Assembly: GCA_013350335.1 (NCBI GenBank)
Contig: CM023540.1
Span: 1-64,000 of the forward strand
DNA from: Chimonanthus salicifolius
Lineage: Eukaryota; Streptophyta; Magnoliopsida; Laurales; Calycanthaceae
Length of the DNA: 64,000 nucleotides
Direction: 5' to 3'
The notes below the pieces were generated by a model, which was given only the letters and a program-made list of their open reading frames with translations, had not been told where the DNA came from and did not search any database. Shown piece after piece: positions 1,487 to 60,663 of the stretch. The position numbers and the translations under genes are program-made. Every line of letters starts with the position of its first letter. Within the stretch, counting starts at the first letter, position 1.

Positions 1487-1596
1487 CTCTCATTCTACGT
1501 GCTGTCAGAATTGCAGCTCGTCTAGACTTTCAGTTTACAAGAGAAACAGCTCATTCTGTGAGAGACTTCTCTTGCTTAGTATCGAATCTTAATAAG
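1487..1596 (+). CDS. Poly(A) polymerase/CCA-transferase-like gene, exon e4 (strand-switched relative to e1-e3)
   Basis: Encodes LILRAVRIAARLDFQFTRE, then TAHSVRDFSCLVSNLNK. This is the alpha-helical neck following motif D (family pattern: ED-C-A-R-I-L-R-A-x-R-I-A-A-R-L-x-F). The acceptor is GTTACGCAG at 1,478-1,486 and the donor is AAG/GTATTT. The exon has 110 nt: two bases completing the split Ala codon left by e3, then 36 codons. The residue after that Ala is Leu (CTC) where the EDxxR motif expects Arg. It starts about 110 bp after the 3' LTR of Gypsy-2. An earlier acceptor at 1,469 would give a different N-terminal stretch that does not match the family. Confidence 0.87.
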
Positions 1597-1654
1597 GTAT
1601 TTGAATACTTTCCTGGTATGGATCTTTTTGTTTTTATGACCAAAGGTGTCCAGG

Positions 1655-1850
1655 CATCTCATCCATAGGAGACTTTACCTGGCTAATCCTTTGGGACATG
1701 CGTACACCTCCCTAAACACACATACCAGGTTCAAGTGATGAGGAGTAACCCCATAGGGAGTGGCCCGGAGAGGTTGAGCGTGAATAGAACCCAAGATCTC
1801 CCTTCATGAGTGGAGCTTCTTTGACCATCAGGCCAACCACTCTGGGTTAT
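1655..1850 (-). repeat. tRNA-derived SINE-like element
   Basis: On the minus strand an A-box-like TGGCCTGATGGTC (1,823-1,835) is followed by a B-box-like GGTTCTATTCACGC (1,779-1,792) at tRNA-like spacing, then a unique body. It lies inside the short intron between e4 and e5. The edges are approximate. Confidence 0.5.
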
Positions 1851-1918
1851 ATGGATCTTTTTATTGAACTTGACAAATATGCTGTGACCTTTCCTTTTTC
1901 TTCTTGCAAATAATGTAG

Positions 1919-2026
1919 GGAAGGATACTCATGGAAATGAATTATATGCTAGCATTTGGGTCTGCCGAAGCTTCATTGAGATTACTTTGGAAATTTGGTC
2001 TCCTTGAAATTCTTTTACCCATTCAA
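1919..2026 (+). CDS. Poly(A) polymerase/CCA-transferase-like gene, exon e5
   Basis: A 108-nt phase-0 exon reading GRILMEMNYMLAFGSAEASL and then RLLWKFGLLEILLPIQ, with no interruption. It follows the acceptor AATGTAG and ends before GTATGT. This block (RIxxEMxxML..GSAxxSLRLLWxxGLLExLLP) is very characteristic of plant polynucleotide adenylyltransferase family proteins and lies in the RNA-binding neck/body. The 322-bp intron from e4 contains a tRNA-like SINE. Confidence 0.9.
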
Positions 2027-2129
2027 GTATGTATTTTTTTTTCATATTCAAGATTTTAGCCAGATTGTTTATCTGCCTAAACAAATTTTTTTTTTTTTTC
2101 TGTACATGTAATACACCGAAACTACACAG

Positions 2130-2189
2130 GCAGCATATTTTGTTTCACAAGGTTTCCTAAGGCGTGATAAGCGATCTAACATGCTCCTG
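2130..2189 (+). CDS. Poly(A) polymerase/CCA-transferase-like gene, exon e6
   Basis: A 60-nt exon of 20 codons (AAYFVSQGFLRRDKRSNMLL), phase 0 at both ends, between a CTACACAG acceptor and a GTATGT donor. It follows e5 after a 103-bp intron. The RRDxRSNMLL block continues the body domain. The next exon lies 15.4 kb away because the following intron is packed with retrotransposons. Confidence 0.9.
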
Positions 2190-3500
2190 GTATGTAAAAG
2201 TACCTTCTCTGAGTCTTTGTTATGTAGTGGTGATGTGTGAAAATATTGAATCGTTAGGTTTGTTGTGACTTCATAACAAACTTCATAACAAGCTTATATC
2301 TACTAGAATCATGAACTAGTTGTCAGATTGCATCTGTTATTTATTATTGGTGGATTGACCTTTATTTGGGGCCAAATTCACTTAGTCCAACAGGCAGGAT
2401 ACTCTCATTATTTCCAAATTAGACAGATTTTTAGTTTCTATGGAATAGTTGGATTTATTCTAAGATTCTCATGTACATGCTTTCCATGGATCTACTTTGT
2501 ATCATTGGGCCCTTATGCTTGATACTTTTGAGGAATCTTGGAGCCACTCAATAAAATATTTTTATAGTCAATATAATCAATTAATACTTGAGCACTATCA
2601 GTTCTATTTGTTTAAATAAAATATATAAATATTTTTCAATTAAAACTTATTTTTATAGTCAATATAGTAAAAAAATTAATTTATTTTGATAAGATACTAT
2701 ATTCAATAAATTAACATTTTATTAAAACCATTATAGTCCTCACATGACTGTATCTCGTGAATTAACTATATCTCGTGTGAGGACTGTTTATGGTAAAAAA
2801 AACCACATTACAGTCCTCACAAGGATTGTTAACAGAAGAAATGACTCTTCCACTTCCCATGTCCACGTACGAGGACCCTCACACCTAACACCTAACTTAA
2901 AATATCTGTAACTCTTACAGTATCTAAGTTTGCCAAAAAAAAAAAAATGAAACAAGCTAATGCAAAACAAGAGAAGAGGAAAGCAAAACCAGAAAGTCGA
3001 AGAAGAGGATAACGAAGAAGAAGAAAGAGAAACGAAAAAATCGAAGAAGAGGATTGCGAAGAAGAAGAAAGAGGAAAGAGGAGGAAATGGACGACGAAAT
3101 ACGAGAGGAGAAGAGGAAAAGAAGAAAAGAGAGAAGCATGTCTTGAACTGTTGAAGGCTTGAAGGACTTCCAGAGAGAGCATACACCACAGCTTGCAGAG
3201 GAGACACGATGGATGAAGAAGGGTTTCTCTTTGTTTGCTTGAAAGAAACACATGTAAGAGGGCCATGTATTTATCGATCCTTTTTTAGACTTTAATAGGC
3301 ATGTGAAAGATGACTTTCGATCTTCCTAAGGTATCCACAGCATGTCTTTCCTCTTTTGCTCATTTTCCCTCTTTTTTTTCCTTCAACATTGCACGATGGT
3401 GCGATTGACGAGTTTCGAATCGTGCAATCTGCGATTTTAGCAAAACTCAGACGGTTGCCCTCTTAAAATGAGTACAAAAGCGATTTTTTGCCATGGCCTT
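2190..3500. other. Start of 15.4-kb intron; low-complexity sequence
   Basis: No gene seen. Contents: AT-rich intron, a short palindromic segment near 2,735-2,785 (GTCCTCAC...GTGAGGAC), and a purine-rich GAAGAA tract at 2,950-3,150 that creates spurious reading frames on both strands. Confidence 0.6.
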
Positions 3501-3880
3501 TACTTGTTGGTCCTTATCGAATGGATCCTTCATGGAGATTGGGATTTTAACTTGAGGGGTGAGTGGAGCAGTAGTAGTCATCTATTGAATAGAGGCCCGA
3601 GCAGATTTGTCCATAGTTGAAGGCCCTATAAACATGGGAACCAATGTCTCCTCTCGAAGGAAGCATTGTATACATGGTAGACAAGGGTGGTGTGATGAGC
3701 TGTCCAAGGATTTGTGCACGGAGAAACTTAAGGTTGGATTTGAGGCTAGCCAGTAATTTATAGGTACGCTGAGACTCAGCTAACTTCATCCGTATCTCAA
3801 TATCTTTTGAACATACAAGACTTATGATCTCAATGTAGTCGAGTTCTTGCCATAAGGTGCGTAAGTATATATAATAGAAA
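3500..3880 (-). pseudogene. Copia gag fragment (UBN2 type), downstream half
   Basis: The minus strand reads YYIYLRTLWQELDYIE... and ...AESQRTYKLLASL...LRAQILGQ. These are the LRTLWQELD and QRTYKFLAGL signatures of Copia gag. It stops abruptly at about 3,880, where the Gypsy-1 LTR begins. The upstream half of the same gag lies on the far side of Gypsy-1 at about 10.5-10.8 kb, so Gypsy-1 inserted into this Copia relic. The frame is broken. Confidence 0.6.
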
Positions 3881-4512: not shown

Positions 4513-4546
4513 TGCTACATTAGCGTCCCCTGTGGTTGAAAAGGAC

Positions 4547-5528: not shown

Positions 5529-5529
5529 G

Positions 5530-7143: not shown

Positions 7144-8640
<1,497 letters not shown>

Positions 8641-8641
8641 T

Positions 8642-12100: not shown

Positions 12101-12103
12101 AAG

Positions 12104-12979: not shown

Positions 12980-12992
12980 ACTTCAACCAACG

Positions 12993-13091: not shown

Positions 13092-13127
13092 GAGTTGAAT
13101 CGCGACTCGTATGTTTGCCAACATTGC

Positions 13128-13985: not shown

Positions 13986-15819
13986 ATGGCATCATCTTCT
14001 ACATCTCCCGCTTCTTCACCAGATATGTCCTCTTCTGGCTCTCCACAGATTGGACAGATCATGACGGTGTTACTAAATGAGACCAATTACTTTGAATGGT
14101 CCGATTCTTCAACGATGTTCTTAACTGCGAGGCAACTTTCTTCGTATATCGATGGTACTGCCCCCAAACTAGCAAAGACTGATTCTACATTCTCCACCTA
14201 GACTGCCAATAACACTCTGGTCCAGGCTTGGCTTCTTCACTCATGGAAGCTCATGTACGGCATCTTGTTTATACACTTCCTACCGCTAAAGCCGTCTGGG
14301 ACACTGTAAAGACTCTGAACTCTGATGGGGATAACTTCGCCCGTATGTATGAATTATCTCAGACCATTGTCACTCTCTAGATGAGTTCTACTCTGTCTTA
14401 CTTCGTGATGATCAGCGTCACCTTTTTATGACTCCTATGCTGGCTGAACATTTTACCCTGGTCACCACCCATTCTTTCTCTCTTTCTCCGACTTATGGGC
14501 CTCCAGCTTCCCATGGCAAGGATCCTTCTTTTGATCCTCGTAAAGACACCAAAGGCTCACGGAAGAAGGGGGCCCGATTTTGCACCTATTGCAAGATGAA
14601 ATACCACAACATTGACTCTTGCTACAAGTTACATGGGCGACCTAAGCAAGCCAAATCTCTCCGTTGCACCTACTGCTTTTTCCTCTGATGTGGCTCATGA
14701 TAGTGCCCCTGTGACTCGACATGACTTTAACTTAATATTGTAATGACTGGAGCGCCTTGAGCCCTCTCAGGTTTCCAATGTTGTCTCCTCTACATCAGGT
14801 ACTGAATCATCTGCCCACCATGCCTCTCATCATTCTTGGATTGTCGATTCTAGTGCTACTGACCATATGGCTAGTATGTCTACCCTCTTCTTTTCTCTTT
14901 CTCCTATTTCTTGTGGTAAGGTTAAATTAGCCAAGGGCTCAGACACTGCTATTGTTGGGAAATGGACTGTTTCAGTCTCTCCTCATTTAGACCTTCCCTT
15001 TGTTTTGCATGTTCCAAATCTCTCCCTCAATTTGTTATATGTTAGTGCCTTGACTAAACATTTGAATTGCTTGGTCATATTCTCTCTCTCTCGTGGCCTC
15101 TATTTCTTTCAGAGAAAGTATGCCTTGGATCTCCTCTTGGAAGCTAGCTATTCTAGCTGCAAACCCGTGGATACTCCGTTGGATGTGAATACTAAGTTAT
15201 TTGCCTTTGATGGAACCTTTCTTGACACACCAAGTTTCTATCAGAAACTTGTCCGAAAGCTCATTTATCTCACCATCATGAGACCGGACTTATCTTATGT
15301 TGTTGGTGTTGTCAGCCAATTCATGCATGAACCACGGGACACTCACCTTCATGCTATGTTCTGCACTCTTCGATATATATTAAGGCTCATCCGAGTCATA
15401 GTTTTTTCAATGCACACCAGCCTACTTGTCCGGCTCACGATTATTCTGATGCTGATTGGGCTAGCTATCCGGATGATCGCCACTCTACTACTGGTTATTG
15501 TGTTTTCTTGGGCTCCCATTTAGTTGCCTGGCGAAGCAAGAAGCAATTAGTTGTTGTTCGTTCCTGTGCTGAGGCTGAATATCGTGCCATGACTGATATT
15601 ACTTCTGAATTGTTGTGGCTTCGACAATTCCATACTGAATTGGGCTTTGCTCCTGCCAATTCACTCGTCATGTTCTGTGACAATCAGGTGGCCATCAACA
15701 TTGCCTCTAATCTAGTATTTCATAAGTGGACTAAACACATTGAAGTTGATTGTCACTTTATCCGTCTGCATATTTCAGAAGGGCGACTTTTTACTCCTCA
15801 TCTGACATCTTCTAACTAG
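13986..15819 (+). pseudogene. Copia gag-pol relic lacking integrase and most of RT
   Basis: Begins MASSSTSPASSPDMSSSG with gag signatures (VLLNETNYFEWSDS). It continues to a Copia knuckle (CTYCKMKYHNIDSCYKLHGR) and protease region (SWIVDSSATDHMASM, DSS in place of DSG/DTG). After about 15,110 it jumps to the end of RT and RNase H: KPVDTPLDVNTKL, YQKLVRKLIYLTIMRPDLSY, SKKQLVVVRSCAEAEYRAM, CDNQVAINIASN. Integrase and the RT core are deleted. Stops and frameshifts occur throughout. Confidence 0.8.
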
Positions 15820-15821
15820 CT

Positions 15822-17561: not shown

Positions 17562-17623
17562 ACATTGTTCTCTAAGTTGGATAGGCTTCTTGCACCTAAT
17601 AGGCCTTGCCATAGTAGCTTGTG
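17562..17623 (+). CDS. Poly(A) polymerase/CCA-transferase-like gene, exon e7
   Basis: A 62-nt exon encoding TLFSKLDRLLAPNRPCHSSL plus two bases (TG) of a Trp codon. It lies between a TTGTGCAG acceptor and a GTAAGT donor. The leftover TG joins the first base of e8 to give TGG, so the family motif HSSLW(I/V)GILAFH is kept across the intron. The exon is intact although it sits between two transposon-filled introns of 15.4 and 8.7 kb. Confidence 0.88.
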
Positions 17624-23737: not shown

Positions 23738-23885
23738 TTTTTTGCTCAAAGGGAAGAGGAAGGAAACCAAAGTAGAGAGAGAGAGAGAGAGAGAGAAGAG
23801 AGAGAGCCCCCACGAATTATCTACTATGCCCATTTTTTGCTCAAAGGGAAGAGGAAGGAAAACAAAGTAGAGAGAGAGAGAAGTA
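23738..23885 (-). repeat. Local duplication with GA repeat
   Basis: A segment TTTTTTGCTCAAAGGGAAGA...GTAGAGAGAGAG occurs at about 23,738 and again at about 23,831, separated by a long GA run. Confidence 0.6.
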
Positions 23886-23911
23886 GGGCCCCATGAATTA
23901 ACTGGTTGGGC

Positions 23912-24288
23912 TCATCTGAGCTTGTCTTTGTCCCTTTCATCATTTGGGTGTGAATATTTTCCGTCACTGATGACCCCAAAAGCCAGTTGTTCTGATTTCT
24001 GAGAGGCCTGGGCTTGCAATTGATTTCCTCTAGTGTAAGAAAGACATAAAGAAGAATTTTGACGCACAGATGTATTTGCTGATCGGAAGCACTGCAGATG
24101 TAAGAAGAAGAATTCCACTGGAGAAAAGTGTACAAGAAGGAATTGTCACCACAGTTGACTGAAGAATCTCCGAAGATGAAAAAGGCAGAGATGGGCGATT
24201 GGCCTTGGGCAGAAGGCAGGAGCGTAAATTGACTAGAAAGAATGGCAAAGGCGAAGAGAAGACCAGCCATTGGTATTCTCCTTTCCAT
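23912..24288 (-). pseudogene. GDSL esterase/lipase first-exon fragment captured in Pack-MULE
   Basis: The minus-strand frame starts MERRIPMAGLLFAFAILSS with a hydrophobic signal peptide, then SPISAFFIFGDSSVNCGDNS. The latter is block I of plant GDSL esterases (FxFGDSxxDxGxN), including the nucleophile Ser of GDS. The Asp after SSV is Asn here. NSSSYICSASDQQIH follows, resembling the next part of the family, after which similarity fades. Blocks II, III and V with the other catalytic residues are absent. The full protein would be about 350 residues; about 80 remain. Confidence 0.65.
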
Positions 24289-24589
24289 CTCGTCTTTCTT
24301 ATTTTTGGAAAATAAAAGGCGCTAACGTTTTGGGAAATAAAACGTCATGTGAAAAGGGGTTAGCGTCCGTGTCCACTTGCGACCTCAGCGTGAGGAGAAA
24401 AAATTGAAACGTGTGGGCGTTAGAGACCACGGACTTTCTTTTTTCCAAAGTATCGTCCATTTAATAGGGGGTATACGGTTAGAAAAGATGATGGTGCAAG
24501 TATCACTTTTCAAGTAGTTTGGAAAAAAATAAAGTTTTATTAAAAGTGGTGTACCATAATTAAAAAAAGGGTGCAAAAATCACTCTCCC

Positions 24590-26363: not shown

Positions 26364-26682
26364 GATTGGAATATTGGCCTTTCATTTGGCTCTAGTGGAT
26401 GAACCTCGCAATCCTTTGGCAGTTGCTACATTTGCTCTTGCCATACACAATGGGGGAGATCTTTTTGAAGCTGTAAATATAGCGACAGGAATTACCCAAT
26501 CGCATGATAGCAATTTCAATGAACTACTTGATGAACATCATCCATTGGATACTGACAATGAGTTAATGGATGAGGTTTTGGATCTTGCATCATCAGTGAA
26601 GTCTGCATTGAATATGATGACAGATGAATATTTTGTCTCACAGGCAATGGCAAGATACCCACAAGCTCCATATTCAGATATG
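26364..26682 (+). CDS. Poly(A) polymerase/CCA-transferase-like gene, exon e8
   Basis: The longest visible exon, 319 nt. One base finishes the split Trp codon, then 106 codons follow: IGILAFHLALVDEPRNPLAV, later ATFALAIHNGGDLFEAVNIA, and near the end DEYFVSQAMARYPQAPYSDM. This is the C-terminal helical domain typical of the plant family. The acceptor is GTTATACAG and the donor is ATG/GTACTC, followed at once by a CT/CA dinucleotide repeat. No stops or frameshifts. Extending the frame 5' of the acceptor adds residues without family similarity, so the splice boundary was chosen as the exon start. Confidence 0.92.
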
Positions 26683-27728: not shown

Positions 27729-28830
27729 TGTTAGTGCCATAGTTTATTTGTGTCTCCCATATTGTCAATTCCTTGACTAAGTGTCCGAACCTTGCCTTTG
27801 GAAGACCGAAGATGGTGTATCAAGTAGTTGAAGACCAGAAGCATGTAATTTAGAAGACTGTGCTCGAAGAAGTAATCTCCCGTGTTTGCCAATCATTTCA
27901 GGTAAAAAGGACCGTAGGTGTGACTAGAAAGACCCTAATTACATTTAAGTAAATTGGTATTTAATTGTAGAATTTCTGTAGTCAAAATCATGGTCTAAAT
28001 ATTTTTTACTTGAAACAAGGGATCGGTGAACCGAATTAGTGTAAATTTCACACTGTGCTAGCCGTTTTCAGAGTATGGTTTCTAAAAGATCCAATGCAGT
28101 CGATTACTGTTCGTAAAAGGATTCTACTTGGCAAGGAATTGCTCAAGCAATATCCTAACCGATTGCACAAGTTTTCCAAGAATTCGAATTAGTCTATGGA
28201 TTTCATAAGATTAGGCCTCTTCTAATTGCATTGAATTTGAAAATAGCGAAAGCAAATTAAAAGTGAGACTGATGAAATTCGATTATTGCATTAACCTAAT
28301 CTATGAAGACCATAGAACTAATTGAATTCAAAACAACTGGGACTTACTTGCTAATGGTGAAAATTGGAGTTCACCAATCTTCAAACTACTCTACAGAGTT
28401 ACAAGAGCATTCCTCTCTCAGAAATAAACTTCAAATCTAATTCAATTGTGTAAAATTTGAATGGGGTACATGGAGTATTTATATAGAAAAACTAGCAAAA
28501 GACCTAATTGCCCTTGCCTTGGTCGACCACACCAAGGAGAGACTCTCTCTAAGAAATTCAACAAATAAACAACTACCAAGGATAAAAAGACCACTGAAGT
28601 TTGTGAGTTATACGGAAAAACTAGCAAAAGACCTAATTGCCCTTGCCTTGGTCGACCACACCAAGGAGAGACTTTCTCTCTAAGAAATTCAACAAATAAA
28701 CAACTACCAAGGATAAAAAGACCACTGAAGTTTGTGAGTTATTTCAAAAAGCCAATTGAAGACTTTGTGCTTGGCTCCTTTCTAATAAGGAATTCAAAGA
28801 CTTTAAAGCCAATGGCTTCTTATCTTCGTG
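27729..28830 (-). repeat. Decayed LTR-like sequence
   Basis: The left part (GTTAGTGCCATAG...GTCAATTCC) resembles the SIRE-like LTR start at 5,530. The right part has a minus-strand TATA box (TATATAAATAC near 28,477). No coding content. Contains the tandem duplication at 28,486-28,745. Confidence 0.4.
28486..28745 (+). repeat. Two-copy tandem duplication (about 130 bp)
   Basis: The block GAAAAACTAGCAAAAGACC...GTTTGTGAGTTAT occurs twice in a row, at 28,486-28,614 and 28,615-28,745. The copies differ mainly by a 2-bp CT indel. Confidence 0.85.
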
Positions 28831-28840
28831 GGAGGGTTGC

Positions 28841-29501
28841 ATGAATGGAAGAACTAGGAAACCCAAAGTGTTGGTGGACTCGTCACCTCCTCAACAAAGG
28901 GTCATGAAATTTAACGTTGATGGAGCATCGAGGGAAAAATCGGGCCCGGCGGGTATTGGGGCCGTGCTTAGAGATCACAATGGCCAGACATCAGTGATAT
29001 TCACAAAATCAGTAGGGACTAGAGACTCTAATGAAGCTGAACTTTTTAGTATCAGGAGAGCTTTGTCCATTTGGATAGGTCTAGGTGGTGGAAAACTAGT
29101 CATCAAGGGAGACTTGGCAAATACAATTAAATGGGCGAAAGATTTGAAGCGACCTCTCTGGAGACTGATTACCACAGTTAGGGAGATCAGGGCTTGCCAG
29201 GGGGACTGGAGGTCTCCTTCGTTCACATCAGGCTTGCAGCAAATGGGGTAGTGGATTATTTTGCAAAGAACGGCTTAGAGGGACTCGTTTTTAGTGTCTT
29301 CTATATTCAAAGAGGAAGCTCTTTGGATTGTGCTAGACGGACCTACCTGTCCATCTGGAGCTTTTGTTGTTCTTTTTTCTTTTTCTATTTATTGTTTTTT
29401 CCTTTCTTGTGTTGGTTGGTTCTAATCCTTTTAGACCTTTTTCCTTGTACTGTTTCTCTTTCTTTAATAATATAATCACTTTGTTACCTCTCAAAAAAAA
29501 G
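28841..29501 (+). pseudogene. LINE 3' part with RNase H-like domain
   Basis: Encodes MKFNVDGASREKSGPAGIG, AVLRDHNG, SVGTRDSNEAELFSIRRALS, KLVIKGDLAN, and after a frameshift VVDYFAKNG. These are the D-E-D blocks of the RNase H domain found at the end of plant L1-type LINE ORF2. The 3' UTR ends TTAATAATAT...CTC(A)8. The rest of ORF2 is absent (5' truncation). Confidence 0.75.
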
Positions 29502-35989: not shown

Positions 35990-36208
35990 GTTTTTATCCC
36001 ATTGGCATTGTATTTGAAGGTCTGCAAGATCTTTGAGTGCATAGGAAGGAATGGCAAGGAGAAAGGTTTTGTCCCAAAAAGTGGAAGCAAGATTAACTTC
36101 AAATGTTTGGCGCAAGGTGGGTTGCAAGAGGTTCGACATACATTTGCTCGTGTTGTTTTCGATACTGTTTATCCTCTAAACCTCGATCACAATCCAAGAG
36201 AACAATGA
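35990..36208 (+). CDS. Poly(A) polymerase/CCA-transferase-like gene, last exon e9
   Basis: A 219-nt terminal exon: VFIPLALYLKVCKIFECIGR, then a lysine-rich turn, then LQEVRHTFARVVFDTVYPLN and stop TGA at 36,206-36,208. It follows e8 in phase 0 (SDM-VFIPLALYL) after a CTCTTGCAG acceptor. The nine exons sum to 1,131 nt, an uninterrupted 376 codons plus stop. The gene therefore looks intact from the head-domain end to the terminus, though N-terminal exons are outside the window. The C-terminus agrees with family members that end shortly after VFDTVYPL. Confidence 0.92.
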   Translation, partial: VFIPLALYLKVCKIFECIGRNGKEKGFVPKSGSKINFKCLAQGGLQEVRHTFARVVFDTVYPLNLDHNPREQ

Positions 36209-37690: not shown

Positions 37691-37695
37691 ATTAT

Positions 37696-47937: not shown

Positions 47938-49541
47938 TCATACAAACAATTCAGGGTGAGACGTTCTCATCTCCGATTCCAATTCCCAAGTGGCCTCCTC
48001 AACACCATGTCGATCCCAAACCACCTTGACGAACTGAATCGCTCGGTTACGTAACACCCTTTGCTCACTCTCCAATATTCCGACCGGCTTCTTGACATAA
48101 GTGACGTCGCTTTGCACATCTATATCTTGCACATTCAAAACATGAGACGGATCAGGGTTGTACTTCCTCAGCATCGACACATGGAATACATCATGTAGAG
48201 ACGCCAATTGCGAAGGAAGTGCCAACTGATAGGCTACATCTCCCATCCTTCTGATAATTGAAAACGGTCCCACATATCTTGGCGACAATTTTCCTTTCTT
48301 CCCAAATCTCATGTGCCCTTTTCGTGGCGAGACCTTCAAGAATACCATGTCTCCCACTTCAAATTCGAGAAACCTCCTCCTTTTATCCGCATAGCTCTTT
48401 TGCCGACTCTGTGCGGTCAACAAATGTTGACGTATCAACTGGATCTGTGCAGTAGTTTCTGCAACCAACTCAGGTCCTATCAGTGCAGGTTCGCCGACCT
48501 CGGTCCAGCACACTGGTGACCTGCATGGTCTACCATACAAAGCTTCGAATGGTGCCATCTGAAGGCTTGCCTGGTAGCTATTGTTATAAGAAAATTCCAC
48601 CAATGGCAAATGATCCTCCCATCCACCTTTGAAGTCTAGCGTGCACGCCCTCAACATGTCCTCCAACGTTTGTATTGTTCTTTCCGATTGTCCATCGGTC
48701 TGTGGATGGAATGCTGTGCTAATAAGTAGATCGGTTCCCATGGCCGACTGCATGCTCTGCCATACCCTGCCGGTAAATTGGCCATCTCTATCAGACACTA
48801 TAGTCTGTGGAATACCATGTAATCTGATGATATCTTTGATATATCTCCGACCCAATGTCTCTGATGAATCTGTCATCTTGATAGGAATAAAATGCGCGGA
48901 CTTGGTCAATCGGTCTACCACAACCCATATAGCGTCATTGCCCTTCGAGGACCTCGGCAACCCCGTCACAAAGTCCATGGAAATGTGCTCCCATTTCCAT
49001 TCCGGCACTGCTAAGGGTTTGAGTAACCCTGGTGGCTTCTGATGTTCCGTCTTAACCTGCTGACAAGTTAAACAATGAGCCACGTAGTCTGCAACATCCT
49101 TCTTGAGTCCATGCCACCAATAATGTCTTTTTAAGTCATGATACATTTTTGTGCTACCTGGATGAATGGACAGCTTGCTCTGATGTGCCTCTATCAATAA
49201 TTCTTTTCTGCAGCTTCTTGGCACATATATTCTACCCCGGAACATAAGACCCTGTCCTGGTCGTAATTCCCAATCCGGTACAACCTCGCCATTAGACATC
49301 TTGGCCCATGTCTCTGCCATTTCCGGATCTGTTTGTTGCTCCTGTTCAATCTTTGTAACCATGTTGGATCGTATGATCAAATTGTACATACTCCCATGGT
49401 TTGTGATATATAGATTAAACTCACGAATGGAATTCAACATCTCCCATTCAGTCCTGATCAAACATGCCACTGATGCATGAGACATGCGGCTGAGAGCATC
49501 CGCCACTTTGTTGGCCTTTCCCGGATGATATCGGAGCGCAA
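47938..49541 (-). CDS. Tekay/Del chromovirus pol: RNase H end, integrase, chromodomain (truncated by gap)
   Basis: An uninterrupted minus-strand frame of over 530 codons running out of the gap. Domains in order: RNase H end (YHPGKANKVADALSRMSH); integrase HHCC zinc finger (HPGSTKMYHDLKRHYWWHGL, CLTCQQVK); DDE core with Asp in SMDFVTGLP, Asp in TIVSDRDGQF and Glu in HPQTDGQSERTIQTLEDML; GPY/F module (LSPRYVGPFSIIRRMGDVAY); C-terminal chromodomain (RVLRNRAIQFVKVVW, then EEATWELE). Reverse transcriptase, protease and gag lie beyond the gap. The open frame suggests a young insertion. The 3' LTR follows. Confidence 0.9.
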
Positions 49542-49641
49542 NNNNNNNNNNNNNNNNNNNNNNNNNNNNNNNNNNNNNNNNNNNNNNNNNNNNNNNNNNN
49601 NNNNNNNNNNNNNNNNNNNNNNNNNNNNNNNNNNNNNNNNN
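49542..49641. other. Assembly gap (100 N)
   Basis: Exactly 100 undetermined bases. Minus-strand coding on the two sides belongs to different Gypsy families and different polyprotein positions, so the gap does not lie within one element. Confidence 0.99.
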
Positions 49642-50093
49642 GAGCTCCTCGTAAGTAATCCAAGTCTGCTCTGAATTTGGTCGACCTTGCCAATGCACAA
49701 GGTATGCCTGATACCACGCACCCCTCTCCTCCCCCCCCCCCCCCCCCCCCCTCCCTCCCTCCCCTCCCCTCCCTCCCCTCCCCTGGCTACCACTTGATCA
49801 TCTACAATATCCTCGATAACATCTCTAGTGGTCAGAATGGGAGGCAGTAGAGGAACAGGTTGTTGGTCACAGTCTGGGTCAAGGGTGTTGGTTGGGTCTT
49901 GGAAAGGATTGGGTGGAATAGATGCTGGACCCAAGAACAGAACAAAGTCCTCAACATTGAAAGTCGAACTAATTCCAAGATCAGATGGAATGTCTAATAC
50001 ATAAGTATTGGGACCAACTCGTCGAACAACCTTAAAAGGACCAGTGCTTCGGGCTTGCAATTTCTTAGCCACTCCCTGTGGGAAAAGCTCAGG
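49642..50093 (-). pseudogene. Gypsy-2 polyprotein C-terminal region up to the gap
   Basis: Minus strand: KKLQARSTGPFKVVRRVGPN and YVLDIPSDLGISSTFNVEDF (integrase C-terminal module), a Pro-rich linker, DIVDDQVVA, a G-tract, then VHWQGRPNSEQTW and ITYEEL at the gap edge: a chromo-like tail (W-KG-P---ATW). The G-run (plus-strand C-run at 49,731-49,785) shifts the frame. Confidence 0.75.
49731..49785. repeat. Poly-C / CCCT low-complexity tract
   Basis: A run of about 20 C followed by CCCT repeats, 90 bp from the gap. It may be slippage-prone and may contribute to assembly trouble. Confidence 0.9.
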
Positions 50094-51147
50094 TCAAACC
50101 CGAACCATGACATTGTCACCCACCTGAAATTCCTTTTGCCGGCGATGTGCGTCAACAATTGCCTTATACTTTTCATTGCTCAAGGCGATCTTGCGCCTAA
50201 TCTCAGTATGCAAATGATGTATATGTTGTGCAAATGCAGACTCAAATGGCCTATGGGTAGTAGACATGGGAATCAGATCTAATGAGGAAGGCTTATAACC
50301 AGTAACAACTTCAAATGGACTCGTACCTATGGACCTATTGACCAAATTGTTATATGCAAACTCCGCAGTCGGTAGGACGAGATCCCAATCCCTGATGCGA
50401 TCCCCAACAAGGCACCTCAACAGGCTACCCAAACTTCGATTCACCACCTAAGTTTGACCATCTGTCTAAGGGTGGTAAACTGTCGAGAATTGCAGACGCG
50501 TGCCCAACATGTTCCACAGTGTCTTCCAAAAGTAACTAATGAACCTCACATCCCTGTCAGACACTGGATTTGGGCAATCCATGTTTACAGACTACCGAAT
50601 CATAAAATAAACGTGCAACTCGGGGAGAATCAATAGTCTTTGAGCACATAATAAAGTGGACTATCTTCGAAAAGCGGTCCACTACAACCATGATGGAATC
50701 GTGCCTTCTGATAGTCTTGGGAAGCCTAAGTACGAAGTCCATGCTAACATCCTGCCACGGGGCATGCGGAACAAGAAAATGTGAGTATAGCCCGGTATTC
50801 TGCTTTTTCTGCTTTGCCAGTTGCCATGTGCGACACTGCCCAACGATAGTAGCTACATCTCTGTAGAGATGAGGCCAATAAAACCTATCTTCCACAAGGG
50901 CAAGGGTCTTATCCCGACCTTAGTGAACCGCAATATCACTGCCATGTAGCTCCCAGATGATGAAATCTCTGAGGGAGGTGCGAGGGATGCAAAGATGACT
51001 GCCTAAAAAGAGGTAGCCATCCTGCAAGATAAATCGCATCCAGCTAGCATGAGGATCGCTTGTGAGACCCACATACACACTTCCAAAATCTAGACACTGA
51101 GGATACTCGCCTCGTATACACTCAAATCCCATCACTGAAAGGCTCAT
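50094..51147 (-). pseudogene. Gypsy-2 integrase
   Basis: Minus strand: CIPRTSLRDFIIWELHGSDI; zinc-finger and core start (FYWPHLYRDVATIVGQCRTW, QDVSMDFVLRLPKT); VSDRDVRF; a TVYHP...TDGQT block with Gln codons turned to TAG; and AEFAYNNLVNRSIGTSPFEV. Asp residues of the DDE triad are readable, but stops interrupt the frame. Confidence 0.8.
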
Positions 51148-52020
51148 GGTGTGTAGGAGAGTTGTCCTATGATAGATGTATCAAAGTCAAAATGTTCTGT
51201 AGGCTCTACTTTGGGAGGGTCAGACTCAAATCTCACGGTAGCCACCCTGTGGCTAAGGACGTCTGCAGCCTTATTTTTGACACCGGCCATGTGCTTGAGC
51301 ACAAATGTATACTCTTCAAGAAACTCCACCCACTTGGCAAGATGTGAATTTAGTTTCTTTTGAGAGTTCAGATATCTCAGGGCATCATGGTCGGTATATA
51401 AGACGAACTCTTGCGATATCAAATAATGTCGCCAATGTCTCAAAGATTGCACAACAGCATAGAGTTCCTTAACAAAGGTGGTATACTTTTGTTTGGCGAG
51501 CTGCAACTTCTCGCTAAAATAAGCGATAGGATGTCCCTCCTGACTCAAAACACCACGTACGCCGACGCCAGAAGCATCACATGCCACCTCAAAGACTTTA
51601 GAAAAGTCTGGAAGGCATATGACAGGAGCCTCAGTCTGGAAGGCGCATGACAGGAGCCTCAGTCATCCTAGATTTAATCTCCTGAAAGGCTCTAGTTGCA
51701 GCACGAGTCCATACAAAATCCCCTTTTTTGATGCAATCTGTGATAGGGGCTATGATGGTTCTAAACCCACGAATAAATGTGGCTAGCCCATGGAAACTAC
51801 GGACCTCGTGAATGGTACGTGGCTCAGGCCACTCAACTATGGCTCTCACTTTCTCCGGATCCGCCGACATACCCTCAGGAGAAACTACGAAACCCAAGAA
51901 GACGACTCTAATAGTCATAAAGGAACACTTCCTTAGGTTCGCATACAATTTCTCAACTCGGAGGGTCTCATATACTTGCCTCAAGTGGTCGAGGTGTTGA
52001 TTTTTGGTAGCACTATATAT
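51148..52020 (-). pseudogene. Gypsy-2 RT thumb and RNase H
   Basis: Minus strand: IYSATKNQHLDHLRQVYETL and FLGFVVSPEGMSADPEKVRA (RT end), then MACDASGVGVRGVLSQEGHP and EFVLYTDHDALRYLNSQ (RNase H). A 28-bp tandem duplication at 51,606-51,661 shifts the frame between the two. Confidence 0.8.
51606..51661 (-). repeat. 28-bp tandem duplication breaking pol
   Basis: The block GTCTGGAAGGC(A/G)(T/C)ATGACAGG... occurs twice in a row. Twenty-eight is not a multiple of three, so it destroys the frame. Confidence 0.85.
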
Positions 52021-52025
52021 CAAGA

Positions 52026-52891
52026 TGATGTAGACTAGGTAGGATTAAGAATACCCAACCTTGGATTATAGCGGAAGCGATAACGAAAATCCAGTGTCTG
52101 AATAAATTCTCCAACTCACTGGCGTTGGCTGGTTGTAGGACTGCAACACATAACCTGAACTGGCTGCAATTGCAATGAAACTGGGCCTGACGTGGGATCA
52201 CTTGCAATCCCCAATCTGCTGCAAACCCACTTAAACAGGAACCAAATCCTCTTGCTGTTTGCTGGTATTCACAAGCACTCCAAGAAGGAAAAGAACCAAC
52301 CACAGGTCTACAACTAGGGACACCTGTACCTGGCTGATTCTACAACCAAAATTCTGCAATGTATTGCAGTGATTAACTCCTCACAAAACACTCTGTTTTT
52401 GTGGAAAAAGAAAACAAAATTTTATTCATGAAACTCTGTACCCCCAGGGGCTGATTACAATCTTATTTATAAGAAATCCTAACCTAAAATAAGGAAAGAG
52501 AGTTCTCCCTTAACAAGGAAAGAGAGTCCTATCTTAACAAGGAAAGAGAGTCCTGTCTTAACAAGTAACAAGGAGCCGACCCTCCAATTATGAAAATAAC
52601 AAATTCTAAATCTAGAAAATAACACAAAGAAGCTTTCCTAATTTAATTAAAATCCTAGCTGATTTAGGATTCTAATTCACAACCGTCAGCACCTCTTTAG
52701 CCATTGAGCCTGCTCTGCTGGGCCTGTTCTTGGGCTTAAGCCAATGGACCTGCTCTGCTGGGCCTGTTCTTGGGCTGAATTCCATGGTCCAATTGATAGG
52801 ATTCATTGTCATTGGACATCCTATGGAACTTCTCATAAAAATCTAATGCCAAGGCCAAAATCTCATCTTCTTTGTCATGATGTCCGCATCA
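52026..52891 (-). repeat. Solo LTR-like insertion B (TSD TCTTG)
   Basis: Plus-strand ends TGATGTAGACTAGG and GTCCGCATCA, i.e. TGATGCGG...CTACATCA on minus. Flanked by CAAGA at 52,021-52,025 and 52,892-52,896 (TCTTG on minus). It splits the codons of the RT YFDDILIYS box. Contains three imperfect copies of AACAAGGAAAGAGAGT(T/C)C at 52,485-52,570 and a duplicated CTGCTCTGCTGGGCC block. No coding content. Confidence 0.75.
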
Positions 52892-52896
52892 CAAGA

Positions 52897-52921
52897 TATC
52901 ATCGAAATACACTACCAAGAA
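52897..52921 (-). pseudogene. Gypsy-2 RT catalytic box (YFDDI) islet between two insertions
   Basis: The minus strand reads VVYFDDI; it is separated by insertion A from the upstream FIDKF and by insertion B from the downstream IYSATKN. It shows that the original RT active site was intact before the insertions. Confidence 0.75.
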
Positions 52922-53853
52922 TGATGCAGGCCAAGCTGCACTTTGAATTTTAGATCCGGGGTTTTACGCCGTATCACGGATTTTAATGAAGAAACCCAAA
53001 AATCCACTCTTAAATCTCTCGATAACTCTCAAGAAAAATGAAAGAAGGGCTAATTTCAGCGGGATAGTTTGGCAGAAACAAACTCACCAAAGAAACTAGG
53101 TGTTCTTGAAATTAACTCAAACAAGGAATTGGGAGTTCGAATTGTGCGAACTCTAATCCGGCTCAAACTCGGGATTACTCGAAGAACCTTCTGATGACCT
53201 TAGTTGCACGTGGAATTTAATCTAACACGCCATGAACTGAAGATTCAACAGGCATCAACTCGCCAAACTCGGGGGATGGAACAAGCCTCAAGCTTTCATA
53301 AATTTCAATTAAAAAATATCTGTCCTAAGTTTGGTCAAACAATGTGATTTTATAGGCCATTATTTCAAAAGGGAAATAAAATAAATAAAGAACTAAAATA
53401 AAAAAAGATCTCTAAATCTCTAGCTTTCGTTTTTTGCAAAGTTGGAATGGACCCACTCTCTATCTTCTCTTGATTTTTCTTGCTGCTAAATCTTCTCCTT
53501 TGTAGGAGCGTCCGATAGCAGTTGGGTTTCCGAATCTTCATCAACTTTCTTGTTATTCTTTCTTTTCTAATCTTACCCATGCAAAGTGCAGCATATCTTT
53601 ATCCCTTATTTCATCCAGCTAGCACTTGCTGGGTTTTGACCTTTGTACCTTCATGTGAACCAAGCAACTCTTGCCTGCTAATTTGGGGTTGGGCCCGCAT
53701 GACCAGTGACGTGGAATTGAATGTGGGGCTCAAAGGTGGGGCCCTCTCTTCCCACCATCGATCCAATGACCCATCTTGCCAATCGGGTCCAACTGAGATG
53801 GCTCATCTCTGCTCGAACTCTCATCAGGTTTATCAGGCTTGATGCCGACATCA
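52922..53853 (-). repeat. Solo LTR-like insertion A (TSD TTCTT)
   Basis: Plus-strand ends TGATGCAGGCC and GGCTTGATGCCGACATCA. Flanked by AAGAA at 52,917-52,921 and 53,854-53,858 (TTCTT on minus). 932 bp, non-coding. The termini TGATG...CATCA are shared with insertion B and with the LTRs of Gypsy-2. Confidence 0.75.
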
Positions 53854-54319
53854 AAGAACTTATCAATAAATGGTCTTAACACCTGGGTCATGATCCTCAT
53901 GAAGGTACTAGGGGCATTTGATAGCCCAAAAGGCATGACCATCCACTCGTACAGTCCATCCTTCGTCTTGAAGGGGGTCTTCCACTCGTCCCCGGGACGA
54001 ATGCGGACTTGATGGTATCCACTCTTTAAGTCTATCTTCGAAAACACACTGGCACCTACCATCATATCCAACATGTCATTAAGCTTCAGTATGGGAAGTC
54101 GATACTTGACCGTGATCTTATTAATGGCCCTACTGTCCACACATTCGCCAAGTTCCATCCTTCTTCGATGTGAGGAGCGCAGACAAGGCACAAGGGCTCA
54201 AACTCTCCCTAATAAACCCCTTACGAAAGAGTTCATCCACTTGCCTTTGTCATTCAAAGTGCTCAATAGGATTCATCCTGTAATGTGGCAAGTTGGGTAG
54301 GGTCGCTCTGGGTACAAAG
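53854..54319 (-). pseudogene. Gypsy-2 reverse transcriptase, N-terminal half
   Basis: Minus strand: [85 protein letters not shown], then insertion A. Scattered stops and frameshifts. Confidence 0.85.
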
Positions 54320-56846
54320 TGTAACGCCCCGTCCCTCTACGGGCGCGTTATCTCCGAAATATCTCAAAACATCACAAAAGACAGATATCAGGCATAGTAA
54401 TTTTTTTTTTTTGAAACGGGGTAACTACCTCCTGCTCAACAAACTATAAGTCCACAATACCAAGAAGCATAACAATCAACAACCATAAGCTAATCTAATA
54501 TTGTCATACAGTCATCAAACAAACATAAGGTGACGAATCCAAACAAACTAAAGTTTTCTCAAAGTTTAAACATAAGCATGACATAAACGTCTAATTACTA
54601 CTGCTCCTCCCTAGGCACTTGCTCAAGAGCCCAGCCTGGCCCCTCAGCGATTGAGGTACCTGAAAGGTAAGGGGTGAGCAAACCAGCTCAGTGAAGGGAT
54701 AAAGCATACCACATGTTAGCAACATAGCTATATATCACAAGTATAAAGTCTAATAAACATCATAAGTGAATGAATATCATTCTCCATGGATACTCAACTG
54801 TACCATTAATCAATGGTCCCATTGACCAGTCCAAGACCCCATCCCCACAACTCTCAATGGTCTTGTAACAACTCCGGTCTCCCTACCAATACAAACGGGA
54901 GACCATACAATATACAACACCTCAACAACCAGATTGCAACGGGGAAACCCGCATCTCCTATGGGGGTCTCAACCGCCGGAGCATAACGGAGAAGCCAATC
55001 TCAAGGGTAGGCACCTCAACCGCCGGAACACAACTGGGAAACCCGCATCCCCTATGGCGTCTCGACCGCCGGAGTGTAACGGGGAAGTCCTCCTGACAAC
55101 TAACTCATCACATCATCATAAGCATGTACATATGTGAATAATCTCTCCAATGCATGCACACGGTGTCAGGATCATGTATAACAATGAGGATACATCCTTA
55201 TACAACCAACTCAAAATCGACAACATAGTTCATCATGTGAGTCAAAAGTATATAATGAGTTACTTAGTCACACATATCTACACTCAACATGGCTTCATTA
55301 TCATCTAGTGAATAAGCACTCCAAGCATCATCAACCATTTTCAAGTATTACATTCAATTATCAAGTTGTCTAATTAAAATTCTCCACAAATGCATATAGG
55401 TAACAGAAGTACACTTGAGCGGACCCTCTGCCACATACATATTTCAATAGTTTTTCCTTACTGAGTGGCTAAATAAATAGAGGGTTAGACTCGGGTCACT
55501 CCATGTCCAAAATAACGGTTTAATATATGCAAGTGCATGCTAAAACAGTAGTAAGTCCCCTCACAGTGTGTGTGGAGTCGAAAGCCCAAAGCGAGTATGC
55601 GGCTTGATGGGTCAAAGGGATCTCAATCTGTTGAAACAAGGAAGAACAAATGAGTAATTAAGACAAAACGAGTTAAAATGAGGCCGGAGAGAAAATGGGC
55701 CCAAAACAGGCCGAATTGGGCCGGGCTTGAAAACGGACTAGGAAAGTGGGTCGGGCGGAAGGGTAGGGCCAGCCAGAAGTGGGCTGGGCCAAGTCAGGTC
55801 GGGCCTGCTAGAAGTGGATTGGGCCAAGTCAAGCTGGGCTAGACCCGAACCAGTCCACTGGGCCTGGGCTGGGCTGAATCATGACTGAGCCTGGCTGGGC
55901 CAGACTGGGCTTGGGTCTGGTTAACTCAAGAGCCTGAGCTGAGTCCACTCGGAGACTCGGCTGAGCCAACTCAGTTGCCCAACTGAGTAGGAAAAAAGGG
56001 GAAAAGGAGAGATCAGAGAAAACCCAAGAAAATCGAGGAAAACGGCGGAAAATCAAGGGAAGACGCGGAAAAAGAAGAGGGAAAATCAGAGAGAGAAAGG
56101 AAAAAGAGAAGAAAAGGGTACCTGAAAGAAGGGAGAGGAGGGGTGGAAAAATCCGGCGCTTGCGAGCGAAAATCCAAAATCGCGAACGGCGACGGCGGTT
56201 GGGGAAAACTGCGGTGGGAGGAGACGGTCGGGTGAGGGAACCGAGAGGGAAGAAGAGGAAGAAGAACAGTGAGAGAAGAAGAAGGAGAAGAAGATGAGAA
56301 AGAGAGAGATACCTGAAAACGGGGGAGGAGGGAGGGATCGCACGAGATGAGGGAGAGGGTTACAGCGGCTACTGCAAGGAGAGGGAAGTGTCTCTTAGGG
56401 TTTCGGAGGAAGAGAGGGTGAGAGGGTGGGTGTGCGGCTGCAATGTAGCTAAAATTCTACAATGGGGCGGAAATTTAAGGGTGAGGGTGTTAGGGTGTTG
56501 GGGGTGGTTTTAACTCTCTTTTTTTCTTTTTTTTCTTTTTTTGAAATAAAAAAAATCAAAGTTTTTCAAAACCTCTCTAAAAATAAAATACAATAAGAAT
56601 GAAAACCAGAAAAATCTCAAATGCTGAAAATCGAGTGAGAAAATGTGTGATTTTTAAATATTTTACATGACAATTTGCATAATAGTTCCAAAATTACCAA
56701 AATGCCCTTCGAGTTCCCGAACTCGAAAACAGGCAAATTGGGACCACCAAGGCGCCCACACACTCCTCACTACTACCATGGTCCCGAAAATAACTCGAAG
56801 ATCCGAAAATCTCTCCAAAAAAAAAAAACCGGAACGGGTCATTACA
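54320..56846 (-). repeat. Solo LTR (Tekay-like, 2.5 kb) inside Gypsy-2, TSD CAAAG
   Basis: Plus-strand ends TGTAACGCCCCGTCCC and GGGTCATTACA, flanked by CAAAG at 54,315-54,319 and 56,847-56,851. Contains GAAACCCGCATC..CCTATGG..CTC(A/G)ACCGCCGGAG repeats at 54,940-55,085 and GGCTGGGC-rich sequence at 55,700-55,930. No coding region. Confidence 0.85.
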
Positions 56847-56851
56847 CAAAG

Positions 56852-57510
56852 TCAATAGCGTGTTGAATGTCATGCATGGGAGGGAGCTCATCCGGTAAAT
56901 CATCTGGGAAGACATCCTAAAACTCTCTCATAATCGGCTCAACCTCCCATGGGCAATCAACACTAGGCTCAAAGGATGTTTCTCTTGTGACCAAAGCAAA
57001 TACAATGTCCTCCTCTTTAGCCTCTTTCTCAAACTCGATAGGACTGAGAATATGCAGGGCTTTGGCTTTTGAGCCATCGTTGTTTGTGCCCTTACTTGGC
57101 TTCTCTGCCTCCTTCTTTGGTGCTTTGGGGGGAAGAGGGTTCAACTTGATCCTTTTACCCTCAAAGATGAATGAGCACACGTTCGACCTACCGAACAGTG
57201 TAGCATCCATGTCATACAAGCACGGCCTCCTCAAAATAATGTTACCTACTTCCATAGGTATCACGTCACACCATACAGTGTCTTTATAGGATGAAAATTG
57301 GACAGGTACCTGACACTGCTGAGTCACGAGAATAGATGACGAGTCCACCCAAGCAACCCGATATGGGTGAGGATGGGTGATGGGTGACAACCCTAATCGG
57401 GAAATTGTCGATGAAGCAATGACATTTGTACAGCTCCCACTATCAATGATAATCTTACAGGTTTTGTCACCGCTCTTAGCAAAGGTATAGAAAATATTAC
57501 TCTTCGCCAA
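56852..57510 (-). pseudogene. Gypsy-2 protease region
   Basis: A 197-codon frame: FAKSGDKTCKIIIDSGSCTN with the DSG catalytic triplet, then DVIPMEVGNIILRRPCLYDM, TLFGRSNVCSFIFEGKRIKL, and an acidic linker to RT. Typical of Gypsy retropepsins; the protease part itself is unbroken. Confidence 0.8.
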
Positions 57511-58986
57511 TCGTCACTCTCTTTTGGTTGTGCTAGGGCACATCGACACACTACCATCACACACGGGGTATTACCCTCACCACGGGGGTATGATTCTCCT
57601 TGTACAAAAGCCAAGCCATTCTCAAAGTCATTGTACTCATCCTCATCGATCTCTTCCAAATCGGGCTCATGGACTTCTTCCTCAAACTCTTGTTCTTTTT
57701 CCCCATTTATTTCAGATTCATTACCTTCAAGGAGCAAAGTTTTTTGTCTGCCCTTACTGGGGCACTGCTGTGCGTAATGTTCATAGCCTTGACAATTGTA
57801 GCACTTGGGCCCTTTGCCCTTGGAATTCTCTCCAAACATTGCTTTGCTCTTATCCACCCAGTAGTGGTTGGAGCACTTGGTTGGTTCCGAGGCGGCTGAC
57901 TGGTTACAGTGGATCTCACTCCAGGAGTAGTCCTCTGTCTGGCACTACTGGAGTCAAATCGTCTCACGACTGGATGTCTAAGATAACGCTCCAACTCTCA
58001 GACCCGTCGCTGGCACTCACCTAGTGTCGTCACATCATGGGAAATCAATTCCCTCTGTAGCTCTGGACTAAGACCTGTACGGAACCTAGAAAGGGTCATC
58101 TGGCGGTCCTCGATGATACGACACAACAACAAAAACTCCTCAAAGTGGTTGATATACTCATCCACTAACATGCTCCCTTGCTGATGGGCCTGCCACTGGT
58201 CCAATAAGCTGCTGTAATAAGAGAGAGGCACATACTTTGTGTTCAATCTGTCTTTCATCACCTCTAAAGAGGTAATGGGACCTTGTCTCGCCATCTCTCT
58301 CTCTCGCTCCACTTTCCCAGAGAAGTCGAGCTTGCCCTATCAATTTCATCTAGGCAAATTGGACTTTCTTTCCCTCTGTTAGGAGGTGCCGTTTACAACA
58401 TTGGTCCATGTCAAAGATCCAGTCTAGGAAGACTTTAGGGTCAGATCTCCCTTCAAAAGTAGGAGCTTTGACCCGACTAGTTCTCATCAACTGCTCATCG
58501 GGGTAAAAAAACTCCTGATCGACCACACGCCTATTTAGACCTCTACCGTGACCAAAACCTCTCCCTCTATCCCGCTCTCCTCGTCCCTCGTCCCCACCCA
58601 AGAGGTGGACCTCTATTCACATCCACATCCTCAAACCCCCCTAGGTCATCACCTTGAGGAATATCCTCGACGGTATAGGTGGAGTCATTAGCGTCCTCCA
58701 CACGACCCTCAAAAGTACCATTTCTAAGAAAAGCAACCAACTCATCAATACGGGCATTGGTGCGAGTATTGTTCTCCTCTACTCGACGCTCAAGATGGGA
58801 TATGGAGGTTAGTAAATCAATAAGCACTTGGACTAACGTGTTGAAGTCCATATTAGGAGTTTCGGGATTGGATTGTCCAATTTGGGAACTCATGTCGGGA
58901 TGGTATTCCTGCCCACTAAGGTGTGCATGAATTCCTAGATGCGATGATGAATGGATGCAGTTTACACCTACATGCATCCTAAACAC
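57511..58986 (-). pseudogene. Gypsy-2 gag
   Basis: Minus strand from MFRMHVGVNCIHSSSHLGIH through a helical segment (LIDLLTSISHLERRVEENNT), the gag core (VKAPTFEGRSDPKVFLDWIF, DMDQCCKR), a spacer (EYINHFEEFLLLCRIIEDRQ), and a CCHC knuckle CYNCQGYEHYAQQCP. Frameshifts near 58,600, 58,350 and 58,000 break it into at least four pieces. Confidence 0.75.
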
Positions 58987-59046
58987 TCCAAGATAGCAAA
59001 CTTAAGACACAACCTAAGTCAAGTGACCTGTATGGGCCACCAAATT

Positions 59047-60378
59047 TGATGCAGGGTTGGCTAGCAATCCTAAATTAATATCTATACAAATCTACGATGA
59101 CTTGACTTAGACTAATCTAAAATGATGATATGAACACATGTATGAAATAAAACTGAGATTATTAACTAGACCACAATAAGCAATTAAAAGTAAGTCAACA
59201 TGTCCAAACACATCCACCATTATAAACATTCATTTGAGATTCCAAATCACAATTAATACTCTTGAAGCCCTAATTCTGACCCTAAGGATGCTCAACAAAT
59301 CAGTCCCATGAAAATGTAACAGTTCGTTTAGTCAATATTGATAAACCATGCAGATTTTGAATTAATATGGGGCTTTGCTGAGATTCCAAATCACAGTGCA
59401 CTAATTCTAACCCTAAGGATGCTCAACAAATCAGTCCCATGAAAATGTAACAGTTCGTTCAATTAATATTGATAAACCATGCAGATTTTGAATTAATATG
59501 GGGCTGAATTGATGTCATTCAGATGTTACACTGCCGTTTGAAGGGATAAAGGCCAAAGGAAGACTAAATAGATAGATTTGGGACTCAAGGAACAATGGTA
59601 CAGCATTGTCCCAAGTGTTTTATGACTGGTTAGATTTAAAACAGGGTTGATTTTGAGAGAATTTTGAATGTAGGGACTATGGGACAGCAGTATGATGGGC
59701 TGTATGGGTTGTAGTGGGAGGTAGGAAGGCCAAAAAATGCTTTAGGACAGCAGCAATGGGCAGTTTTGAGATGAACGGCAGCAGTAAATGGGAGTTTTGG
59801 GTGTGGCGAAGACAATGGAAGGGAATATAGGGGCTGGCGGAAGATGGGTAACAGTTAGGAGGGGCGGAAGGCCCTGGTTGAGTGTTTGGGTTGCGGCAAA
59901 GGGATGGGGTTTTGTGTGGGTAGGTTCCGGCCAAAAAAGAAACAAGAGAGAAGAGGGAAGAAGAAGTAAAAGAGATAGGAAGAGAAGAAGAAGAAGAGAG
60001 GATAGTAGACTCACATGTTAGCTGCACACCAAACCCTCAAGGGGAATTCATTGACACCATGCGCATAGGCCAAGCTTTCCTTTTCTTTTTCTCTTTCATT
60101 CCATCGTGTATGCATCCTTTTTACAAAGCTTTTTTAACCAAAAAAACAAAGGGGTCGGCGTCTCCTTGTTTCCTAAAGCTTTAGGGCAACTAATGAGGTT
60201 AAATGACCCCCCCCCCCCCCCCCCACCCCCCTCCTCCTCCCTTATTAAAATAATTCATAATACAAGTTTGCCCTCATATAAAAAAAAAAAACTATAAGAC
60301 AAGGCTAAGTAAAAATAAAATAAAATCAAAGTCTAATCATCAACTCCAAATAAAATAAAATAAAATGCTCCCGCATCA
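59047..60378 (-). repeat. Gypsy-2 5' LTR
   Basis: In minus orientation TGATGCGGGAGC...CCCTGCATCA, an inverted copy of 263-1,377. It is preceded on minus by AAAAG (60,379-60,383) and followed by gag. 1,332 bp; longer than its partner owing to a tandem duplication of about 130 bp (about 59,236-59,505). A C-rich run lies at 60,210-60,235. Open frames at 59,677-60,027 are the mirror of those at 520-870 and are not genes. Confidence 0.88.
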
Positions 60379-60450
60379 CTTTTTTTCTCTGAATGGAATA
60401 AAGCAACCAGAATAGGTTTTATTAACACATGAAAGCAGAGAGATACTTAC

Positions 60451-60496
60451 CACAATCCTCTTGGAAAGAAGTGCTTGCAGGAATTATAGTCCGAAC
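60451..60496 (-). CDS. Poly(A) polymerase/CCA-transferase-like gene, exon e3
   Basis: A short 46-nt exon on the minus strand encoding VRTIIPASTSFQEDC plus one base. It has a CGCAAG acceptor and a perfect GTAAGT donor. In the family this block carries the start of motif D (EDxxR), which takes part in nucleotide recognition. The exon leaves phase 1, so the next exon must begin with two bases of a split codon. No such exon exists downstream on the minus strand. Exon e4 on the plus strand at 1,487 fits exactly. The 5' LTR of Gypsy-2 begins 73 bp downstream of the donor. Confidence 0.88.
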
Positions 60497-60590
60497 CTTG
60501 CGGAGGTAAAGTCTAAGATAAGCAAAGATGTATATAGGCAAAAGTACCATAGTTAAATGAAATTGGAAAACTTTAGAGATACATGCACAC

Positions 60591-60663
60591 TTTAGCTCTT
60601 TTAATATCTTCCATTCCTCCCAAGTAGTCATACACAAGTTGTGCATAGGGATCAAACATCAAT
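60591..60663 (-). CDS. Poly(A) polymerase/CCA-transferase-like gene, exon e2
   Basis: The minus strand encodes LMFDPYAQLVYDYLGG and then MEDIKRAK, directly continuing the RRDFTING motif of e1. In this family the segment is the FDP..DY.GG..D link between the catalytic head and the neck. The exon starts after a GGAGCAG acceptor with one base completing the split Gly codon, and ends in phase 0 before a GTGTGC donor. It is 73 nt (1 + 24 codons). A 1.4-kb intron separates it from e1 and holds two LINE fragments in the opposite orientation. The intron to e3 is only 94 bp. Confidence 0.88.

Follow-up and report, generated by a model that had tools for sequence, protein, structure and literature searches.

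A probable orientation error at the start of a Chimonanthus salicifolius chromosome record divides a nucleotidyltransferase-like gene between strands

The DNA analysed here, referred to as the window, is a stretch of 64,000 nucleotides from Chimonanthus salicifolius (assembly GCA_013350335.1, contig CM023540.1, below called C9, so that the window is C9:1-64000). The C9 record is 69.07 Mb long in an assembly file of 852.6 Mb and 591 contigs, and window base 1 is the first base of the record, that is, a sequence end. The window holds a poly(A) polymerase/CCA-transferase-like gene whose exons are filed on opposite strands, which a sequence-only reading had attributed to an inverted contig in the scaffold. 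We reach the same view: with a probability of roughly 97%, the terminal 49,541-base block is reversed through an error of assembly orientation and not through biology. This view is supported by a retroelement that crosses the proposed join, by the long terminal repeats (LTRs) and target-site duplication of that element, and by a gene that becomes collinear when the block is flipped. The start of one plant chromosome record would thus be corrected, and a 104-kb gene would be rescued from being annotated as two pieces.

The exon blocks had been said to be separated by a 100-N gap, and this is what we observed. It is the sole N run within the window, and a gap of this size, which is arbitrary, stands just where the gene switches strand. 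The pieces on its two sides are as follows.

49,542 to 49,641, no strand: scaffold gap of 100 N, with no other run of N in C9:1-154000
1 to 49,541, minus: left contig block, from record start to gap, probably wrongly oriented; relative to the right block it should read as the reverse complement
49,642, minus: right contig end, which in the true order would adjoin base 1 (plus) with zero bases between

Flipping one block restores base-level continuity in a feature that is independent of the gene. This feature is a Ty3/gypsy element, located in the intron between the third and fourth of nine exons (e1 to e9 in the numbering of the sequence-only reading). Its sequence, the orientation of its LTRs and its target-site duplication are all made whole by the flip. 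The parts of the element are listed in the order in which they would then be read.

59,047 to 60,378, minus: 5' LTR of the Ty3/gypsy element, 1,332 bases, inside the e3-e4 intron and 72 bases beyond e3, with AAAAG directly upstream at 60,379 to 60,383 (minus)
49,642 to 59,046, minus: internal part of the element on the right contig, with gag-like, protease, reverse transcriptase, RNase H and chromodomain open reading frames (ORFs), assigned by eye from the translations
1 to 262, plus: final 262 bases of the element interior, which carry on from 49,642 (minus) and reach a purine-rich tract before the 3' LTR
263 to 1,377, plus: 3' LTR of the same element, 1,115 bases, 109 bases before e4, with AAAAG directly downstream at 1,378 to 1,382

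The flipped element is 12.1 kb long. As filed, its LTRs are inverted, and they become direct repeats only when 1-49,541 is flipped. One insertion cannot place its LTRs in opposite directions. Over 1,105 aligned bases the two LTRs share 94.5% identity (Kimura two-parameter distance 0.058), and the same five bases, AAAAG, flank both outer LTR edges as a target-site duplication. Among 5-mer pairs drawn from the 60-base flanks, 5 of 3,136 match, which puts the chance of such a duplication at about 0.0016. With the element subtracted, the e3-e4 intron measures 72 + 104 = 176 bases; in a paralogue of the gene on C6, 162 bases separate the EDC codon from RILR, a few of them exonic (an intron of about 160).

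What lies at the join itself? On the minus strand, the right contig stops at 49,642 in what we recognised by eye as the chromodomain-like end of a gypsy pol, and base 1 (plus) carries on the same motif. Read as filed, this chromodomain-like end would instead meet an RNase H-like stretch belonging to another element. Matches to the final 339 bases of the right contig occur elsewhere in the genome, at no fewer than 25 places for the first part of that sequence and no fewer than 23 for its last 72 bases; six of these other copies were fetched for comparison. The right and left sides were neighbours in all six, with nothing missing or added at the join. The reading frame was likewise the same across the join in every copy, with stops near it in several and at the join in one, as in the window copy, and each had a sequence similar to the chromodomain-like end recognised by eye in the window element. 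The predicted junction of base 1 (plus) with 49,642 (minus) was recovered base for base in 6/6 copies. The sequence shows a base-exact join, a single element insertion and, once the block is flipped, a collinear gene. The same approach offers a cheap test for other assemblies: a retroelement straddling a scaffold gap, through LTR orientation, target-site duplication and alignment to other copies, can fix contig order and orientation without reads.

The element resembles a Ty3/gypsy LTR retrotransposon with a chromodomain: it has LTRs, a 5-base duplication, a purine tract before the 3' LTR and a chromodomain-like pol end. It differs in being a broken copy, with poly-G inserts close to the join and in the 5' LTR. 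We take it to be of the chromovirus type. The first insert, 21 C in a row (49,731 to 49,751, plus; read as poly-G in the element), lies some 90 bases from the join and is absent from the six compared copies. The second, 18 C (60,207 to 60,224, plus; again poly-G), lies in the 5' LTR, and the sister 3' LTR has no such insert. Both tracts may be trouble spots of sequencing or assembly.

We rebuilt the nine-exon gene model from the sequence. As had been proposed, e1 to e3 are on the minus strand and e4 to e9 on the plus strand.

62,102 to 62,235, minus: exon e1, 134 bases, the ninth exon when counted from the gene's 3' end
60,591 to 60,663, minus: exon e2, 73 bases
60,451 to 60,496, minus: exon e3, 46 bases, with one codon base left over
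1,487 to 1,596, plus: exon e4, 110 bases, bringing the two missing codon bases and containing a motif-D leucine codon
1,919 to 2,026, plus: exon e5, 108 bases
2,130 to 2,189, plus: exon e6, 60 bases
17,562 to 17,623, plus: exon e7, 62 bases
26,364 to 26,682, plus: exon e8, 319 bases
35,990 to 36,208, plus: exon e9 with the stop codon, 219 bases

Together the exons total 1,131 bases, or 377 codons counting the stop, free of internal stops and with AG/GT at all internal exon borders; both this unbroken count and the phase claimed for e3 and e4, one base left and two supplied, agree with the earlier description. The restored motif does not: it had been given as EDCA-ILR, and it is in fact EDCA-L-ILR, at a place where 119 of 120 listed homologues have R. 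The phase match alone is weak evidence because any two pieces of one gene family would match. The deciding evidence is the retroelement test.

The nine exons stand, but they are not the whole gene as had been supposed. Reading C9:64,001-154,000, we found five further exons upstream of e1 and outside the window, on the minus strand near 65.1, 101.4, 113.2-113.3, 113.5 and 117.5 kb. Hence, e1 is not the first exon but the sixth coding exon of at least 14, and e1 to e9 are the last nine. The first coding exon is at 117,536, and the span from start to stop after the flip is about 104 kb. The true order on C9 minus would accordingly run from 117,536 to e3 (60,451), through the 12.1-kb Ty3/gypsy element, to e4 (1,487) and on to e9 (36,208), all within a single gene of some 104 kb. 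In the file, the 49,541-base block at the record start would have been severed within the element and placed back in reverse, separated from the rest by 100 N.

A protein homologue search returned 1,248 matches, 120 of them listed. The best match among those listed, P0001, is a protein of 545 residues encoded on a 1,955-base contig. From the length of that contig we infer that P0001 derives from a spliced message or from a copy of such a message; its source tag, lgn, presumably denotes assemblies of public read archives. P0001 and the nine-exon model agree at 370 of 376 residues (98%), and their alignment is gapless at e3|e4, in support of the claim that flipping 1-49,541 unites the gene on one strand. 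The five upstream exons jointly encode P0001 residues 1-157 with one residue differing, as judged by eye. Six residues differ between P0001 and the model, and the window stop codon is absent from P0001: where the window has TGA at 36,206 to 36,208, P0001 has a residue, followed by 10 more that are also encoded right after the window stop.

Pfam assigned the window model both a head domain, PF01743 (PolyA_pol; 32.2 bits, cut-off 23), and an RNA-binding domain, PF12627 (50.8 bits, cut-off 22). For P0001 the scores were 88.1 and 48.3 bits, respectively. The gene thus has both domains of the plant PolyA_pol family, whose members are named poly(A) polymerase I-like or CCA-adding enzyme-like by their sources, and it is 64-77% identical to named PolyA_pol homologues among the 120 matches listed.

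Several observations weigh against a simple orientation error. In five of the six copies the left local alignment begins at base 2, with exactly one base between the two sides, and it begins at base 1 in only one. The window copy is broken: a poly-G insert precedes the join, a stop codon falls on it and the frame changes a few codons further on, so that the element frame (the last chromodomain residues) crosses the join only locally. For this reason, the argument is borne by the base-level alignment to other copies. The LTR of another copy is 93.1% identical over 919 bases, and LTR identity by itself therefore proves no pair. Finally, P0001, with 6/376 residues and the stop codon different, may derive from a close relative or from another allele.

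Perhaps the exon blocks are two partial copies, or two alleles (haplotigs), set side by side? The phase would agree for any copies of one family, and the file does contain 580 further contigs besides the 11 long ones. We consider this very improbable. The refuting finding named earlier, complete exon sets on each strand, was looked for: the exact sequence of each of the nine exons occurs once within the window, and C9:1-154000 yielded no second e4-e9. In the whole genome, a head-domain search in which four candidates were scored placed two above the cut-off, this gene (C9:101,328-101,429, minus) and the C6 paralogue, which is clearly different from it and retains the motif-D R. Moreover, allelic contigs would overlap and would not adjoin to the base within a single insertion flanked by the same AAAAG.

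Slightly less credible still is a true chromosomal inversion that broke the gene within the retroelement in the sequenced plant. It would account for exons on opposite strands in the record, and gypsy-like ORFs do contain both contig ends at the gap. However, one break would have to coincide with the first base of the record and with the gap, with zero bases lost or gained, and on its other side, at 49,541, the block again stops exactly at the gap. These coincidences bear out the earlier judgement that a real inversion is much the less likely event. In addition, the frames of e4 to e9 are intact and a contiguous homologous protein exists on a short contig. A gene truly split between strands, its message made by trans-splicing, has the strand split itself in its favour and nothing else; it cannot explain element sequence and an LTR pair crossing the join, and we regard it as negligible.

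If the orientation error is accepted, how did the block come to be cut? Because the blocks adjoin to the base, they were probably one contig that was cut by software. The likeliest route would be a Hi-C pipeline that pre-split contigs into pieces of about 50 kb and then misoriented the piece at the chromosome end. PMC10809908 describes LACHESIS-based scaffolding in which sequences are divided into pieces of about 50 kb, and PMC7672694 presents short contigs as a hard case for Hi-C orientation and documents their orientation errors. Pre-splitting predicts later gaps at multiples of 49,541 or 50,000 beyond 49,641. We found a gap in none of 20 wide stretches at steps 1-20. In 40 narrow windows at steps 21-40, there was one 100-N gap, at C9:1,486,266-1,486,365. 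If no further gap interrupts the right block, whose intervening stretch was read in part, its length would be 1,436,624 bases, or 29 x 49,538.8, against 49,541 for the flipped block.

These data are suggestive only, and some points count against pre-splitting, though not against the orientation error. The gap is 65 bases from the exact 29th multiple of 49,541. It is a single match in 40 narrow windows, for a chance expectation of about 0.03 that assumes approximately one gap per 0.54 Mb, with the figure of 1,531 in a review table (PMC8012582) taken as the number of contigs in 820.1 Mb. The sampled unplaced contigs, furthermore, are not uniform in size (12.7-347 kb). Separately, we rejected the idea that the unplaced contigs (mean about 56 kb) are uniform pieces of about 50 kb, as the 21 of 580 that were sampled span 12,725 to 346,915 bases.

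The proposed error resembles the misoriented short contigs in Hi-C scaffolds treated by HiC-Hiker (PMC7672694): here, too, a short block (49.5 kb) at a gap is reversed relative to its neighbour and a gene model is broken. Unlike those cases, the blocks here adjoin to the base, and the reversed one lies at the very end of a chromosome record. After the flip, the 49,541 end would become the end of C9 and is probably a natural contig end. A second gypsy-like element, 47,938 to 49,541, is cut by this other end of the flipped block. No telomere repeat arrays were detected in the first 2,000 bases of the window, the last 5 kb of C9 or the first 2,000 bases of nine other chromosome-size contigs; the first 2,000 bases of C4 are N. 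This null result carries no information on orientation.

The reunited gene is unusual at motif D. At the e3|e4 join, both the model and P0001 read EDCAL, with the motif-D arginine replaced by leucine at model residue 86 (window 1,487 to 1,491). The arginine is present in 119/120 homologues listed, the sole exception being P0001. We scanned the model up to position 120 for unusual residues, and at residue 120 itself, 34 residues beyond the leucine, model and P0001 have N in place of a D found in 119/119 others listed. Compared with the plant PolyA_pol family and its EDxxR motif D, the window gene differs at both of these residues. By sequence, its membership in PolyA_pol is not in doubt; motif D bears on activity. 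In class II enzymes, according to PMC7014341, EDxxR is motif D and its residues template the incoming nucleotide. With the frame otherwise intact and the change also seen in the short contig, altered activity of the window protein is possible. It is a tentative suggestion, and on balance a doubtful one, that the reunited gene encodes an expressed class II nucleotidyltransferase-type protein that has an intact frame, lacks the templating motif-D arginine (EDxxL) and may have changed base selectivity.

Other ORFs were seen in the window. One at 23,824 to 24,321 (minus) has a secretion-signal-like start and an FGDSS motif, and it resembles the first exon of a GDSL esterase; this GDSL-like reading had no Pfam match. 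Inside the introns of the gene lie copia-like pol pieces at 14,747 to 15,819, with a Pol_BBD match for 14,747 to 15,523, and an RVT_3/RNase H-like ORF at 28,760 to 29,251, in a region with a 71.5% match at about 61.5-61.9 kb.

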